This document shows, piece after piece, positions 19,931 through 50,596 of a stretch of 64,000 nucleotides of DNA. Every line of letters starts with the position of its first letter. Positions within the stretch are counted from its first letter, which is position 1. A model generated the notes under the pieces. It ran no database searches, was not told the DNA's origin, and saw only the letters and a list, made by a program, of their open reading frames with translations. This DNA is from Amia ocellicauda (lineage: Eukaryota; Chordata; Actinopteri; Amiiformes; Amiidae): assembly GCF_036373705.1 (NCBI RefSeq), contig NC_089867.1, positions 16,418,001 through 16,482,000 on the forward strand, read 5' to 3'. The translations under genes were made by a program, and so were the position numbers.

Positions 19931-21506
19931 GAGTAGTGGTTTCCAAACCTGGTCCTGGAGGGAGAACCCCCTACCCTGATGGGTTTTGTTCCAACTGTGC
20001 TCTTAATTACTTAATTTAACCTTTAATTTAACTAATAATTTGCGAGCCGTTCATGCAGGTGATCCGCCGGGACGTCCGGGAGACAGGTTTCCATCTCCCG
20101 GGTTCCGGCGGAGAGCAACTGAAAGCCCTGGCCTATATGGACGATGTGGCCGTGGTCTGCACGGACGCGCCGTCCCTGGCCAGGGTTGAGGAACTGCTGG
20201 ACGGCTTCTGCAGGGCGATGGGGGCCGCTGTCAATAGGGCCAAGAGCGAGGTCTACCTCTCCAGAGCATGGCCTGTCGGCCGGGGCCCACCGACCGTGTT
20301 CCCTGTGAAGCCGTCCATCAAGGTTCTGGGGATCACGATCGACGGGACCAACACGGGCACCCGGAGCTGGGAGGAGGCTTTATCTAAAGTCCAAAGAAAG
20401 ATCCACGGCTGGAGCACAAGGACCTTGACGATGGCCGGTAAGGTGCTGGTCGTAGAGGTCATCCTCTTCCCGATACTCCTCTATGTAGGAATGATCTTCC
20501 CCCCAGACAAGGTCGTCGCAAAACTAGTGACCAGAATTATATTTCGGTTTGTCTGGGGGAGCAAAATGGAGAGGCTGAAAAGAGTGCAAATGGTGAAGGG
20601 TACCCTGGATGGAGGCAGGGGGGTCCCGGATGTTGTGCGGCTGATAAAGGCGCAGGGGCTGGCCTACGTGGTCAAGAACATCCAGTTTTATGGCATGGTA
20701 CTTATAAGGGACTATGTCAATCTGGAGGTCCATCAGAGGGGCAAGGAGGAAGCCTTTAAGAACTGGCAGATACAAGATCTGGGGGAGTTCAGGATCCCAT
20801 GATGGGACCCACCTCCGGGGACGGTCATCCCCCCCGCTGGAGCCCGAGTCCAAGATCTTTTAACCCTTTTATGAATGATTGTTTTTTAAAATGACTTTTA
20901 AAAATGAATTTTAACTGTTTTTAAAGATTTAGTTGTTTTTAAAGCACTAGTTGTTTGTTTTTTTTTGGTTAGTTTTGTTCTATTTTTTTTTGTCAAATAC
21001 ATTGACCGTTTGGAATTAATTTTAAATGCATCGGACCGTTTTGGTTTGTTTTTTATTTTATCATTTTAATTGTTTTTTTATTTGTCCGGTGAATTTTCAG
21101 TTATTTTCAATGTATTTGACTCTTTTGTTGGTAACATTTTACTTTAATCACGTTTGTTTTGTTTAAGCACATGTTTATTGAAGTTCAGTATTTATTTTAC
21201 GTTAATCACTAAGATTTTAAGAATTGATTAAAAAAAATAATAATCATGAGTATTACAATTTGAATGAATGTTTTTATTTTTGAAATGTAAAATACTTTTA
21301 CCAATAAAATAGTAATAATTTGCTTCCATTTGACTTCTTAAATTGTGTAACTGATAAAAGTTAGCTCCTTAATAAGTTCCTTATACAAGTTTATACTGAA
21401 AAGCCCTACTGTTTAAAATAAATAATAACAATAATTAAGGTTCAATTAAGTAATTTAGAGCTTGGTTGGAACAAAAAACAGCAGGGTAGAGGAACCACTG
21501 GTCTAT
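19931..21506. repeat. Inverted repeat pair bracketing a LINE fragment
   Basis: The left arm (about 19931-20042) carries GTGGTTTCCAAACCTGGTCC, TTTTGTTCCAACTGTGCTC and TTACTTAATTTAACC. The right arm (about 21431-21506) carries the reverse complement of the same boxes (TTCAATTAAGTAATTTAGAG, CTTGGTTGGAACAAAAAACA, GGAACCACTGG). Between them are a LINE reverse-transcriptase fragment and about 0.55 kb of AT-rich sequence. I do not know the family; it could be one fold-back element invaded by a LINE, or two copies of one SINE/MITE in opposite orientation. Confidence 0.6.
20053..20802 (+). pseudogene. LINE reverse-transcriptase fragment with a long open frame
   Basis: An uninterrupted 249-codon frame contains LKALAYMDDVAVVC, where YMDD is the RT catalytic box, then KVLGITI and the downstream segment WSTRTLTMAGKVLVVEVILF with a later GGRGVPDVVRLIKAQGLAYV block. 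This order is typical of L1/Tx1-like non-LTR elements. The endonuclease and N-terminal RT blocks are missing, so the copy is truncated and not autonomous. Its GC-rich, stop-free state suggests it is younger than the Tc1 elements nearby. Confidence 0.75.
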
Positions 21507-34217: not shown

Positions 34218-34274
34218 CAGGATTCTGTGTGTGTGTTGTGCAGTATATACAGTCTGTGTGAGTTGTACAGTGTA

Positions 34275-34306
<32 letters not shown>

Positions 34307-34915
34307 TGTACAGTGTATGCAGTCTGTGTGTGTGTGTTTGTGAGGTATACAGTGTGTGTATGTGTGTTGTACAGTGTATACAATGTGTGTGTTGTGCATT
34401 GTATACTGTCTGTGTGAGTTGTACAGTGTATACAGTGTGTGTGTGTTGTACAGTGTATGCAGGGTGTTTGTGAGGTATACAGTGTGTGCGTGTTATACAG
34501 TGTATACAGTGTGTGTGTGTTGTACAGTGTATGCAGTGTGTGTGTGTGTTGTACAGTGTATGCAGTGTGTGTGCGTTGTACAGTGTATACAGTCTGTGTG
34601 TGTGTGTGTTTGTGAGGTATAGTGTGTGTGTGTGCGTTGTACAGTGTATACAGTGTGTGTGTTTGTGAGGTATACAGTGTGTGTGTGTGTGTGTTGTACA
34701 GTGTATGCAGTGCGTGTTTGTGAGGTATAGTGTGTGTGTGTGCGTTGTACAGTGTATGCAGTGCGTGTTTGTGAGGTATAGTGTGTGTGTGCGTTGTACA
34801 GTGTATATGGTGTGTGTGTTGTACAGTGTATACAGTGTGTGTGTTTGTGAGGTATACAGTGTGTGTGTGTTGTACAGTGTGTACAGTGTGTGTGTGTTAG
34901 AGAGAGAGAGAGTGA
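34218..34915 (+). repeat. Complex GT-rich minisatellite
   Basis: About 700 bases made of GTGTGT runs of varying length separated by TTGTACAGTGTATACAGT or TTTGTGAGGTATACAGT boxes. There are more than 20 boxes, with a higher-order pattern. It lies in the presumed first intron of FBLIM1. Confidence 0.9.
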
Positions 34916-36065: not shown

Positions 36066-39000
36066 ATGATGGCAGCCCAGACGCCCCAGAAGAGGATGGT
36101 GTCATCTGTGTTCATCACACTGGCGACTCCCTCCCGTGCCACGCCCCGCACACCCACTGGCACACAGCCTGGCAAACCAGTAGGCACACTGACTGGCACA
36201 CAGACTGGCCAACCAGCAGGCACACTGACTGGCACACAGACTGGCCAACCAGCAGGCAAACTGACTGGCACACAGACTGGCCAACCAGTAGGCACACTGA
36301 CTGGCACACAGACTGGCCAACCAGCAGGCACACTGACTGGCACACAGACTGGCCAACCAGCAGGCACACTGACTGGCACACAGACTGGCCAACCAGCAGG
36401 CACACTGACTGGCACACAGACGGGCAAACAAGCAGGCACACTGACTGGCATCAATTCCAAGTACACCAGACTCAATGCCACCACGCCCTCCAGCCCTGGT
36501 GCAGTGCCCCAGCCTCCCCCCATCACCACTGGCCTCACCAGGAAACTACCACCCCCACCCCCCTCTGCCAATGGACAGCCAACAGCAGGAGATAACTGCA
36601 CTGATGGTGAGTGGGGTGTGTTAGGGAGGTGGAGTAGTGAGGCTCTGTATTGCTGTGTTTGTGCATGCTCTGTTTTATGCGTGGTTTTGTGTAGGTAAAG
36701 GTTAATTGAGATGCTTCTAAAGTGCAGGAAAACACAAAATATAAGCAGCAGGACAACCTATCACTGACTGACTACAATCACTATCATCATCATTATCATA
36801 ATAACTAGAATTTAAAGTATCTGTAGATACTTTGCATGGGACAGTAATTTGTTTGCTATTTTACTGGAAATGTATTATTTTAATGGTAGCATGCAGGTTA
36901 ATATCAGTGATAGTTTGTTATTTAAATAGTAGTATAATTTAGGTTAGGAGTCGTGTGCATTATAAACAGCGTGTAAAGGTAAGTAGGTTCGTAGATGTAG
37001 AATAATTGCAGGTGTGTTCATGTTCATGATAGTATGTAAGTTGGTATAAGAATGTATAATTATTATTAATAAGATAATAGTTTTTAATAATAATGATGGA
37101 CATACTATTCCTGATGCATATAACTCCTAATCTAAATTTTACAGTACTACTACTACTTTGATTGAAACTATCACCTGCTCATACTACCACACAATAATGC
37201 ATATCCCACTATATATCATGCAGAAAATATTTTCACATGCAGACAGAGTATCTGCAGAGACTTTCAATTCTAGTTGTTTAATAATACAGGAATGTGCTTG
37301 AATACCTGTAAATCCTTACTGTTAATTGGCTTTTGAACATAATACATCACAATTCGCTCTGCTTGTTGTCAATGGCATGTTTGCATTTATAATTGATAGA
37401 TTATAAATCAATAATTATTGATCATATAGTGTCACAGTATTAGAGTGTAACACTGATTGACAAAGCAGCGTATTATATAGAATGTGAATCACAATATGAA
37501 GTTTGGTATGTGTAGCGCAAGAACGGAAGAGGAGTTAGTGATTCTCATATCATAATAATAATCATAATACTAATTATAAAGGCACTTGCAAGGGAACAAA
37601 ACTATGTTGTCATATAATAATAGTAATAACTGACATATCTCCCCATCTCCACCTTTCCCTCTCTTTCTCCTTACTCTCCCTGTCTATTTCTTCTCTACTA
37701 CCTCTCCCGCTCTCTCTAACCCTCCCCTCTTGCTTTTTGCCCTCTCTCCTCTCTCCTCCCTCCTCTCCCTCTCTGGTCTCTCCTCCCTCCTCTCTCCTCT
37801 CTTTTCCTCACTGCTCTCTGCTGTCAGACCTGCCACCCCCGCCCCCTCCTGAGGAAGCAACCCTGACCCAGCACTCCACACCACCCCCGCCCCCGCCTTC
37901 CCTGTACACCCCAGTGCCTCCTGTCTCCAGCGCAGAGATGCTGCACAGTCCACCGGCCCCCCAACTGCAGGTAGGAGAACAGAGAAACGGAACACTGACA
38001 CTGAATGGAGTCTCTGTAAACATTTAGGTGGACCTGCTGTTGCAGCCCTCTGTTTTAAGGTTTGTACTTTGTCTAATATGTATTTGTATATCAATGCTGC
38101 CCTCTTGTGGCCATTGCAGGGTGGTGTGGTCGGGAGTCAGCATGGACAGGGAGCTCCCCCTGGTGGTGACAAGCAGGTGTTGCAAGGCCAGCAGCACATC
38201 CAATCAGAACTGCTGGACTGTGAGAGCAAAGGTACAGAAAGAGAGAGAAAGGGGGAAGAACAGAGGGATGGGGGTGAACGAGGAATATACACTCTACACA
38301 CTGCACACCTGGAGTATATAGAGGGCAGAGTGGAAGAAAAATGAACAAGAGAATGATGGTGAAAGAGTGAGAGGTTCAACAATTCTCTGTGATATATTGT
38401 AATAATTGGATAAGGGTGTCTGCTAAGAAATCGAGTCATAAAAAGACATCCTGAAATTGAACTGACAATAAAACAGTTCAAAACAAAACACAACACACAC
38501 TCACAGACACATGACCATATATCCATGTAAGTATATGTATTTTGTTGTGCATCTCTCACTGTTTCCCTCTCTCTCTTGCTTCCAGAGCTCTGTGGTTTTT
38601 GCCGTAAGTCAGTGCCGCTTGCTTCCCCAGCGATCGAGGCGATGAACAGGACGTACCACCCTGCCTGCTTCCTGTGCCGCCAATGTCGCCACCCGCTGGC
38701 TGGGGAGCTGTACTACAACAAGGCCGGGACCCCACTGTGCGAGCCCTGCTACCAGGTACACTGACACACTGACATAATGGGACACTGTAAAACGGTGACA
38801 TTGACACACTGCGTTTGTATGTGTATGTGTTTGTGCATTTGTGTGTGCGTTTGTATGTGTGTGATTGTGGGGCTCAGGCTGCCCTGCTGTGTCTCAGTGC
38901 TCTCTTGCTCCCCCTGCAGGCCACGCTGGAGCAGTGCGGGCGCTGTGGGCAGGTGATCCAGGACCAAGTGATCAGGGCCCTGGACAAGGCCTTCCACCCT

Positions 39001-39791: not shown

Positions 39792-40115
39792 CCCCTGTGT
39801 GACCCCACTTGTGACCTGACCCCTGTACGACCTCTCCCTGACCTGACAGCCACACTCCAGTACCCCCACTGCACTGCCCTTTGACCTCTGACCCCTCCGC
39901 CCCTGACCTTCTTCTTGGGCTTTGCTATTATTATTTTTTATTTCTCAGATTTATAATTAATAAGGGACCACTGAATGTTCTCAGTCATTGGAGCACCTGG
40001 GTGTTTTATTGTAACTGACCTTTTTTATATTGTATACATATCCTTCTCTCTCTGTCTGTTTGTTTCTCATCTTTATTTATTCTCATTAATCAATAAAATA
40101 TTTTCAAACACACAC
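39792..40115 (+). terminator. FBLIM1: FBLIM1 3' UTR and poly(A) signal
   Basis: Short 3' UTR with AATAAA at 40092-40097, followed by a GT-rich element. It converges with the minus-strand gene, whose poly(A) signal is about 200 bases further on. Confidence 0.7.
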
Positions 40116-40308
40116 TTGGTTCTGTGTCTTTTTCACTACACGTTTCCTCACAAAACAAATCAAGGTCCAGATGTATTCATTCAGAAAGGGAGATCAGACC
40201 TGAGAGAGTGAGGGGGAGAGAGGAGAGAGACAGAGATAGAGATAGAGATAGAGAAGAAAGGACGAGGACAGGAACGCTCCACACTGTTCTGCCTTTGTGT
40301 TTTGCAGG

Positions 40309-40318
40309 TTTATTTATT
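40309..40318 (-). terminator. Poly(A) signal of the minus-strand HTH gene
   Basis: TTTATTTATT on the plus strand reads AATAAATAAA on the minus strand, 240 bases after the stop at 40557. It is placed correctly for the convergent gene. Confidence 0.55.
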
Positions 40319-40556
40319 GATCCTCCTCACAGTACTTCCTAATGATCAATGAATGACCAATCCCACAACGATGAGGTTGGGTGCAGTTCCCATCACAGTC
40401 CCCAGACGGAGCCATTTACCCACATTTTACACCTCTTGTTCCTGTAGTTTTTAAGGCAGGATCTGTGTTCATTCATGTGAGGAGGAGTATGAATTGATAA
40501 CACAAATGTTATGATGTAGTACTGCAGTAGTGCTCTCGTAAACATTAAAGCTCAGC

Positions 40557-41090
40557 TCAGTCTCCACAATCACAGCCCCCTCCTCTTCTTTTCACTCCTG
40601 TTAGTTTGTGAGTCTTAGTGTCAGTCCTCTGTCTCCTAGGTGTGTCTGAGGGTCGCGACTTTCTGTCTGCCTCCTCCCTTGCCACGCCGCGCCTCTTCTG
40701 CAGAGCCCTGGTCGTCGCCGCCCCCTTGTCCCCTCCCGCCGCCGTCCACATCATCCCGGCCTCGCGCAGCCGCCGCTTCACCGTCTCCTTAGAGATGCAC
40801 ACGGCGGCGGTGGCGTTGAATTGGGCGGCCAGTTGCGTGCTGGTCTGCCAACGGTCGGCCACACAGCGCCGCACGATCTGCCGGTCCTGCTGCCGGCTGG
40901 TCTTCCTCTTGCGCCCGCGCCCCCGCTTGTTGACGCAGCTGCCTGTCTGACGGTAGCGGCTCAAGGTGGTCTGCACGCCGTTGTGCGACACGTTGACCTG
41001 CCGTGCGATGGCCCGGCCCGACAGGCCCTGCTGGTGCAGAGACACGATCGCCAGCCGGTCCTCGTACTTGATCTCCTTCCTAGGAGCCAT
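40557..41090 (-). CDS. Tc1-type paired helix-turn-helix protein without catalytic domain (likely domesticated)
   Basis: An open frame of 177 residues from an ATG at 41090 on the minus strand. Residues 1-50 read MAPRKEIKYEDRLAIVSLHQ, then GLSGRAIARQVNVSHNGVQT, the first HTH of a Tc1 transposase. A basic AT-hook-like KRGRGRKRK links it to a second HTH (RRCVADRWQTSTQLAAQFN, then ISKETVKRRLREAGM). After residue 110 the protein is basic and low-complexity and ends GGGCDCGD; the WxDE and DDE blocks are absent both here and downstream. The sequence is strongly GC-rich, unlike the AT-rich dead Tc1 copies in this window, and has no stop or shift. A spliced 5' UTR (acceptor at 41272) and a poly(A) signal at 40309-40318 fit a real gene. 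I do not recognise a named orthologue. Function is unknown; DNA binding is inferred. It could also be a recently truncated transposon. Confidence 0.6.
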   Translation of the reverse strand: MAPRKEIKYEDRLAIVSLHQQGLSGRAIARQVNVSHNGVQTTLSRYRQTGSCVNKRGRGRKRKTSRQQDRQIVRRCVADRWQTSTQLAAQFNATAAVCISKETVKRRLREAGMMWTAAGGDKGAATTRALQKRRGVAREEADRKSRPSDTPRRQRTDTKTHKLTGVKRRGGGCDCGD

Positions 41091-41271
41091 CTGTAAGACC
41101 CCAGTCCCTCCTCCTCTCCCTGCACCAGGACAACACTCCAACGCTTGTGGTCCAGGGGCTCTAAGATAGGGGTGCCAGTTGAGTCTTGAGTCTTTGCTGT
41201 GCTATAGTTGTTGTTTCTGTGGCGTTGCTGTTGAATTATGATTCCTCAATCAGGCTGAACTCACTGCATCA
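41091..41271 (-). other. 5' UTR part of the HTH gene's coding exon
   Basis: The minus-strand sequence TTCTCTCCTGCAG|TGATGCAG gives a good acceptor with a pyrimidine tract; the exon would start at 41271. The 181 bases to the ATG contain one tiny upstream frame (ATGCAGTGA). Confidence 0.45.
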
Positions 41272-41555
41272 CTGCAGGAGAGAACACAAACACAGAACAG
41301 CAGTCAGCCCTTCTGGCCCCCATGCCCACCCCATACCCCACTACTCACACTACCCAGTCTGGCTGCTTCCCAGAAACCTGGTGGCACAAGAACAAACACT
41401 GGAGGGCAGCTTTAAGTGCCTTTAAGCACCAGCGAGTGTCCCGATGTACTGGTCACTCTGGTACTCTCCACAAAACATACTGAAGATCAGCACAGGAGTC
41501 CCCTGACCAGACTTTAGAGTAGAACCACCTTGGGCCGGTTTCAAAACATATACTA

Positions 41556-41745
41556 AGGGTGGGATTAAATCAAAACTTTGACCCACCCGCTAATAGAAAA
41601 CTAAAGAACTATACTCAATTGCGGCTTCATTTTTAGTAAGATGACACTTTCTTCTAATCATAAATGTAACAACATAAATGATGAACAAGTTTGTAGTTTG
41701 CTATTAGTGGGTGGGTCAAAGTTTTTATTTAATCTGGCCCTAAGT
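41556..41745. repeat. MITE with about 40-bp inverted ends
   Basis: The left arm GGTGGGATTAAATCAAAACT then TTGACCCACCCGCTAATAG is matched in reverse at about 41705-41745 (CTATTAGTGGGTGGGTCAAA then GTTTTTATTTAATCTGGCCC). It is a short nonautonomous DNA element. It lies in the putative intron of the HTH gene. Confidence 0.75.
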
Positions 41746-42833
41746 CTCCATCTCAATATCATTATAACAATAATACTAACAACAGACACTCAGTTAAAAC
41801 CATTGCAGTCCACCCTTAGACTGGTCTTACTTAGTCAATCACGCAATGCATTCTGGGACTTTTAAGACACCGGAAGAAAGACAAAACGATCACAAGAACT
41901 GAAACTATATACTAGTTTCTGAAATATAGTGCAGAAAGATATACACTTTGGAATAGATACTATCATTTTCGGGAACTTGCACTAATGCATTCAGTAACAC
42001 TCCCCTTTATAAAAGCTGAAGCTCATTGTGATCCTGTGCCTCTGAGATACCAGATTATTTCAGTCGTTAGTCATTACAGTCCAGTACAGCAGCGTCTGCA
42101 GCCCTGGATTTGGAGAGACACGGTACCTATAACAATATTGTACATATATACACACACATTGTTTTCAAATTGTTTCAAAATTAATAATTTATATTCTTAC
42201 AGCATTTTTAATCACCCATTCCTGTTTGTACGTTACACCATTATGAAAATGTAGCTGTAGTTTTTACACTGGACTGCTTTGAAACGCAAAAAAAAGAAAA
42301 GAAAACGTATTACTTTAGAAAATGCAAGGTCCCAGTTATTGAAATCGTTCATAGAAGACTATTAATTATATATCGACACTCTTTAAACTTTCAATTCGGT
42401 GTAGTCTCGCTTGATCTGTTTACATGATTTGTAGGCCTACTGTTGTGAAACTCAGTCTTACTGTACCTACATGGATTTATTATTTCATTATTTATTTGGG
42501 GGGGTGAGGGGGGCGCTTAAGTTTTGATACAATTTTGAATATAAAACAAAGACTGGCTAGTTTATTTCATATTTGTTTCACTGGTTGAATAAATAAATAG
42601 AGCTGGATGAAATGAAACCATCTACCTCCTCTTCAGTCAGCCAGACTGAGACCATGAGACAAAATGGCCGACCAATCATGTTTAACAGTAAAACGAACCG
42701 CTAAAAATACCCACATCAATCGATAATCTTATATTTACGACGCTGAAAGGAAAATGGTACAGAAGTACTAGCCTCTTTTTTCTTGTAATATATTATTACC
42801 ACTCTGTGATTACATTTCCGACTAGCAGCATCC

Positions 42834-49454: not shown

Positions 49455-50596
49455 ATGGTCCGGGAAACCAGACACCTCTGGGTGGGGAATTTGCCCGAAA
49501 ATGTACGAGAGGAGAAAATTATCGAACATTTCAAACGGTGAGTTATAAAAAAAAAAAGAGAGAGAGGGGGTAATACCGACATACGGCACCATGGATTCCG
49601 TCCTATCTTTCTCTCTGTGTTCGCTGTGGATGGATACGTTGCCTTGAGAGTTTATGTATAACATGCCGTCTGGATTATAAACCGCCTGTTCCGCTGGGAA
49701 TATATGCTTGCACTAAAAATTAAAAACAAAAGAAAAAGAAACGGAGAGCCCAAGCTAAGTAAAGAGATGGGGTTTACAGGATGGTGTGCATGTTTCTCTG
49801 TTTCAATGCTCTCTGCGAGCCCAGGCGCATAGGATATCGAGGACTGGCTGAGGATTCCGAGAGAGCAGGCATCGCGGTAACGACGCTGCGATTAACTATA
49901 TTATCTGCATGTGTTTGCTTTCAAACGTCTGTCCCTCTTGTGTTGGTCAAATGCAAAACAAACAAACAAGAAACGCGAGCCACCGTTATTACAGTTGTGT
50001 TGCTGAAATACAGTTGCAGAATTATAGATCTGAAGGTTTTGTGTTAATAAAAAAAGAAAGAAAGAAACGGAACCTCTCGGACGAAAACAACCCCAGAAAC
50101 GAGAGAGCAGGCTTTTTGAGATGCACTACTTTGATTGTTTAAGAGTTGTTGTTGTTTTTTTGGTACAATCCAGATTCAGGAATACGGCATACGATGGTTG
50201 TGTATGTATGTGAGAGTGAGGGAGGGAGAGAGTTGAACAGCCAGAGGACCTTGTGTGTTTTATTATCACGCTAAAAAGACTTGGACTTTAGTACTCTGTC
50301 AATGTCTGTTATTTCTCTCGATTGCCTTAAAAATGCAGTTTATTGCTGGGGGTGTGTTTTGATGTGACTGTGTTTTTTTTTTTAATACATTCCCTCTATT
50401 TGTTGCGAGAAACAGAGAGAGGAATAGGAGGAGGGTAAAATATCTTAGCGGTTACTGTGTATCCAGTATTGGATTGCGAACTGGCAATGTAGAAGGTTGT
50501 AAAATTGTATCGAATTCGAGCAAATCAGTGTTACACGATGCTGAATTGTGTGTATAATATATACATTCAGTGTATATGTGTGTGTGTGTGTGTGTG

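Follow-up and report, generated by a model that had tools for sequence, protein, structure and literature searches.

Domesticated transposase DNA-binding domains are known. SETMAR and KRABINER are described, in the available part of one account, as host-transposase fusions in which the transposase DNA-binding domain is in host use (PMC12062965). In the wider IS630-Tc1-mariner group, CENPB, JRK, TIGD, POGZ and POGK are domesticated genes derived from pogo, which is handled as a separate superfamily; as far as the accessible text of this 2020 report goes, only SETMAR and CENPB were named as earlier Tc1/mariner-derived cases (PMC7386202). A free-standing DNA-binding domain from Tc1 proper in fish would add a new member to them. 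In a literature search of partial coverage, the matches listed had no title dealing with a Tc1-derived DNA-binding gene in fish, nor any report of the locus described here, and within the same partial coverage no paper was found on fblim1/spen synteny in zebrafish.

We analyzed a stretch of 64,000 nucleotides from Amia ocellicauda (the window). In one intact GC-rich frame, the ORF, it contains the DNA-binding region of a Tc1 transposase, from the start methionine through both helix-turn-helix units, followed by an unrelated basic tail. The ORF is probably a domesticated fragment of this kind. Its parts are as follows.

40557..41090, minus strand: the ORF, a Tc1-type DNA-binding protein with no catalytic domain detected (Pfam; unique in its own genome by DNA)
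40935..41090, minus strand: first helix-turn-helix (PAI-like), residues 1-52 (HTH_23, PAX, HTH_SB below cut-off; 2m8e)
40887..40934, minus strand: basic AT-hook-like linker (RGRGRKRK), residues 53-68 (reading of the translation)
40746..40886, minus strand: second helix-turn-helix (RED-like), residues 69-115 (HTH_Tnp_Tc3_2, 8e-9)
40560..40739, minus strand: basic tail, residues 118-177, without significant Tc1 similarity (shuffles; sliding GC3)
40309..40318, minus strand: two overlapping AATAAA poly(A) signals (reading of the sequence)

The stop-free frame of 177 codons noticed in a first-pass annotation is indeed open from an ATG at 41090, which has a C at -3, to the stop at 40557. From stop to stop it measures 214 codons, and when 40001-41500 was shuffled 500 times with dinucleotides preserved, three shuffles had an open frame at least as long; length by itself is only modestly unusual. 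The poly(A) signal placed by the same annotation about 240 bases downstream was found 239 bases past the stop (40318-40309). A plus-strand AATAAA lies behind the end of FBLIM1 at 40092-40097, slightly more than 200 bases beyond that of the ORF, and with signals on opposite strands behind each, the ORF and FBLIM1 would be convergent, as had been proposed. What we take to be exon 1 of SPEN, on the basis of a motif, is found on the plus strand at 49455. The window also contains a 36-base tandem repeat (36148-36450; 8.4 copies, 95% alike), located upstream of the FBLIM1 LIM exons within frames open for more than 200 codons on both strands, and a GT-rich, degenerate minisatellite in which periods of 27, 51 and 61 bases overlap (34226-34898).

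Analysis with Pfam detected HTH_Tnp_Tc3_2 at residues 69-115 (E 8e-9), and HTH_32 (4e-8), HTH_23 (9e-7) and PAX (3e-6) were also above cut-off, whereas HTH_SB (2e-6) was below its own. The PAX match covered profile positions 23-75 of 125 on residues 12-64 only, and a full paired domain with both subdomains is absent. When PDB sequences were searched with the ORF protein, six matches were obtained up to E 10; the top one was the Sleeping Beauty PAI subdomain (2m8e, 7.6e-4), followed by Drosophila Prd and Pax5, and Pax8 was also among the six. By both searches, the bipartite N-terminal helix-turn-helix of a Tc1-type transposase (PAI plus RED) is present in the ORF and, judged from the sequence, its homology to Tc1-type DNA-binding domains is not chance. 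Both helix-turn-helix segments of the first-pass annotation were recovered, through HTH_23 and HTH_Tnp_Tc3_2, and by eye the linker between them, NKRGRGRKRKTS, is AT-hook-like as that annotation had said. At the linker position, both Tc1 families of the genome have GRPR, whereas the ORF has GRKR. Beside these domains, Pfam gave no clear host domain and no homeobox, pogo or CENPB model in the 177 residues.

Occurrence of related sequences was assessed in the own genome (988 Mb, 385 contigs). Among 33177 candidates in the protein search, 150 were scored; the ORF itself was recovered at 100%, and other matches listed showed 30-43% identity, the next having an E value of 3.0e-17. DNA of the region 40250-41540 was searched in three pieces: the ORF matched nothing but itself in the 988 Mb, and the flanks (40250-40556 and 41091-41540) likewise had no further matches. 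Scored candidates represent a lower bound for repeats, and near-identical copies should rank first. The many near-identical copies that the first-pass annotation had set against domestication were looked for in the whole 988-Mb assembly, and none was found by protein or DNA. The intact frame is present at single copy, and the dispersed copies expected of a Tc1 element were not found. IMG/VR and GTDB contigs gave no confirmed relative, which is unsurprising for a sequence of vertebrate origin.

We compared the ORF with 27 other Tc1-like loci (7 plus 20 picked from the genome protein-match list), one of which, L023, had no ORF match in local tblastn and was left out of the tree. In this genome the remaining 26 represent two Tc1-type transposase families, A (MARNKELSSETRQ...) and B (...RHKVVILHQQGLSQ...). 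Identity of the ORF was 36-41% to 16 family A copies (four more A-type copies with a late start being excluded from this count) and 31-33% to six family B copies; for comparison, one family A copy, L029, was 30-35% identical to those six family B copies. The ORF is somewhat nearer family A than A is to B, and in the tree with 26 Tc1 copies it stands by itself on a branch 0.66 substitutions per site long. The alignment is colinear for 114 residues from the start methionine, and similarity stops near residue 114-118. Among the 39 positions conserved between families A and B, the ORF keeps 22 and has lost 17, several conservatively; with 22 kept, the DNA site of its product may have shifted from that of the Tc1 families.

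Within the window, tblastn with Tc1 pieces (E <= 1e-4) detected three other Tc1 copies or remnants, at 12.1-13.2, 19.0-19.6 and 55.7-55.8 kb (GC 0.45, 0.46 and 0.39), rather than the four counted in the first-pass annotation. Elsewhere in the genome, two Tc1 copies, L003 and L004 (C29, 18.85 and 18.77 Mb), are 99.4% identical over 342 bases, with one in-frame TGA each; they are oppositely oriented and separated by about 73 kb, which suggests a local duplication or recent hop. In addition, a stretch that resembles reverse transcriptase by eye is open for 256 codons at 20032-20802 in the window and partly overlaps a CpG-rich stretch (20011-20520, GC 0.58).

The absence of DDE blocks behind the frame, as first described, was borne out. 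With Tc1 catalytic pieces from a window copy and from L007, no significant DDE match was obtained in 39.0-45.5 kb, a search that would miss a very divergent catalytic domain. The L007 piece matched 26 of the 27 other Tc1-like loci examined, its source included; it was unmatched in the examined stretch of L017 and at the ORF locus. We considered whether the tail is a degenerate catalytic N-terminus, since tblastn extended the alignment to the region of the first catalytic Asp. Shuffles did not support this: with three Tc1 pieces as targets, residues 118-177 and 131-177 gave p of 0.34-0.97, and residues 112-150 gave a borderline 0.058 against the catalytic piece. In a sliding analysis, GC3 of the tail drops to a UTR-like level from around codon 140 onward, no position bias was detected in codons 131-177 (p 0.56), and codons from about 140 to 177 look non-coding or UTR-like.

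Composition of the preceding part is very different. GC by codon position in codons 1-130 was 0.61/0.54/0.90, a position bias reached by none of 20000 base shuffles. All 26 Tc1 copies had GC3 of 0.41-0.52 (versus 0.90), whereas six host exon segments nearby had 0.57-0.93 (putative gene names; seven sought, one not found); in this respect the ORF is like host exons and distinct from the transposon copies. The GC3 signal climbs near the ATG and weakens past roughly codon 140. When aligned with L007, the ORF matched at codon positions 1, 2 and 3 in fractions of 0.46, 0.65 and 0.30, and third-position matching to five other Tc1 copies was 0.31-0.33. Of 47 residues shared with L007, 32 differ in the third base, with 23 changes from AT to GC and two from GC to AT. 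Because a neutral simulation gave equal matching at all three positions, the best match at position 2 and the worst at position 3 point to protein-level constraint on the path between the ORF and Tc1. At the sequence level, the pattern shows such constraint along that whole path, the transposase phase included, without isolating selection after capture. CpG observed/expected was 0.98 in codons 1-130, versus 0.38-0.59 in exons of four neighbors; SPEN exon 1 had 1.09. Such undepleted CpG is compatible with an island as well as with a recent insertion, and 40551-41170 satisfies the CpG-island criteria used, which 27 further stretches in the window also satisfy.

Several features around the ORF bear on its origin.

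40284..40301, no strand: left arm of an 18-base inverted repeat, without TA flanks (borderline versus shuffles)
41283..41300, no strand: right arm of the same repeat, without TA flanks (borderline versus shuffles)
41272..41291, minus strand: possible 3′ splice site (GTTTGTGTTCTCTCCTGCAG/TGA), predicted about 180 bases before the ATG (third-ranked acceptor)
41543..41750, no strand: short inverted-repeat element (MITE-like), widely repeated (at least 40 matches, self included, from 3020 candidates)
41750..41886, no strand: adjoining dispersed repeat with a ZNF143/SBS-like site at 41844-41857 (at least 40 matches, self included, from 276 candidates)

The imperfect inverted repeat (16 of 18 bases paired) flanks the ORF on both sides and was matched in 1 of 400 shuffles under one measure and in 10 of 400 under the other. 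Given that its arms resemble the pyrimidine tracts of splice acceptors and have no TA flanks, we lean toward chance; it could also be a remnant of element ends, which keeps the reading of the ORF as a stray element alive. The ZNF143/SBS-like site agrees by our own reading with 17 of 18 consensus places (consensus as given in the part of the source available, PMC5006282) and adjoins a CTTCCGG. A 14-base SBS form has one exact match in the window and occurred in 0 of 100 shuffles, or in 27 of 100 with one mismatch allowed. As a gene promoter the site was rejected: it lies within a dispersed repeat with at least 39 other scored places, including a copy on C4 (L039) whose motif region is alignable and slightly altered, and therefore provides no evidence of a promoter. 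Of the two adjoining repeats (41543-41886), the outer one may spread promoter-like sites.

Domestication, proposed in the first-pass annotation, is favored by the single copy, the missing catalytic half, GC3 like that of neighboring exons and unlike that of Tc1 copies, and the codon-position pattern; this part of the proposal is likely to hold. Its weak points are the 17 of 39 lost positions, the undepleted CpG, the UTR-like codons after about 140, the bracketing repeat, the borderline p for residues 112-150, the C at -3 and the placement of the promoter-like motif in a repeat. Some of these would also fit a non-functional, 3′-truncated insertion whose source was a GC-rich Tc1 element, either rare or acquired horizontally, and which owing to its youth is still open and rich in CpG. 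This explanation, which we consider unlikely, could account for the CpG content and for the repeat at 40284-40301/41283-41300, and under drift a GC-rich frame remains open more readily (with an equilibrium GC of 0.9, the fraction free of stops was as high as 0.58). However, no second copy was found in 988 Mb, the repeat arms have no adjacent TA, no catalytic remnant was detected, and GC3 shifts near the ATG and codon 140, inside the bracketed stretch and not at its edges.

Loss of the coding signature past codon 140 and the plausible acceptor 5′ of the ATG would also be consistent with a formerly domesticated gene or a longer host-transposase fusion, of which the ORF would be the sole intact exon in a larger or decaying gene. 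We regard this as improbable, as GC3 climbs near the ATG, the ORF has poly(A) signals close behind it and, in an ad hoc splice-site scan, donors near the candidate acceptor were weak and a single, weak donor among the 14 best listed fell within the ORF. A Pax-like host gene, that is, an old paired-domain relative with no recent transposon link, appears more improbable still: the PAX model passes its cut-off on residues 12-64 and Prd, Pax5 and Pax8 are among the six PDB matches, yet the second half matches HTH_Tnp_Tc3_2 and not PAX, and from its start methionine on the protein aligns colinearly with Tc1 copies for 114 residues.

Under domestication, the fragment would have been captured from a Tc1 lineage without a close representative found in the own genome, would then have shed the catalytic half along with the terminal repeats, and selection would have retained it in the form of a small nuclear protein. 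Its product would most likely be a small nuclear regulator. With a DNA-binding anatomy and no catalytic domain, the predicted product should bind DNA and not cut it, the paired-like bipartite domain and basic linker presumably recognizing a specific site. It might regulate transcription, or it might compete for Tc1-type ends, occupying them and so damping transposition. Because many Tc1 copies are still present in the genome, competition for their ends is a plausible role, as is sequence-specific control of transcription. Capture of this kind has often been proposed as the source of the paired domain in Pax proteins. More tentatively, and with somewhat less than even confidence, the ORF may represent a vertebrate gene made of the Tc1 bipartite DNA-binding domain alone, an independent, later Pax-like capture that is possibly a repressor of resident Tc1 families. 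If true, the short list of such cases would gain a gene from Tc1 proper that has only the DNA-binding half, and this gene would provide either a small testable case of a paired-like transcription factor arising from a transposon or a case of a host turning a transposase fragment against its relatives.

Known systems close to the ORF include the Tc1 transposases of its own genome, with which it shares a colinear bipartite helix-turn-helix and, in family A, the place of the start methionine; it differs from them in having no detected DDE domain, a single copy, GC3 of 0.90 versus 0.41-0.52 and its own branch of 0.66. Its first helix-turn-helix is recognizably paired-like, as in the Pax/Prd paired domain, whereas the second is Tc1-type and no homeobox model was listed by Pfam. 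Unlike the pogo-derived genes, it matches Tc3- and SB-type models and no pogo/CENPB model. Although SETMAR and KRABINER are fused with host domains and the ORF has no clear host domain by Pfam, the proposed gene would be like both, as they are described in the available part of the source, in that a transposase DNA-binding domain has been put to host use (PMC12062965).
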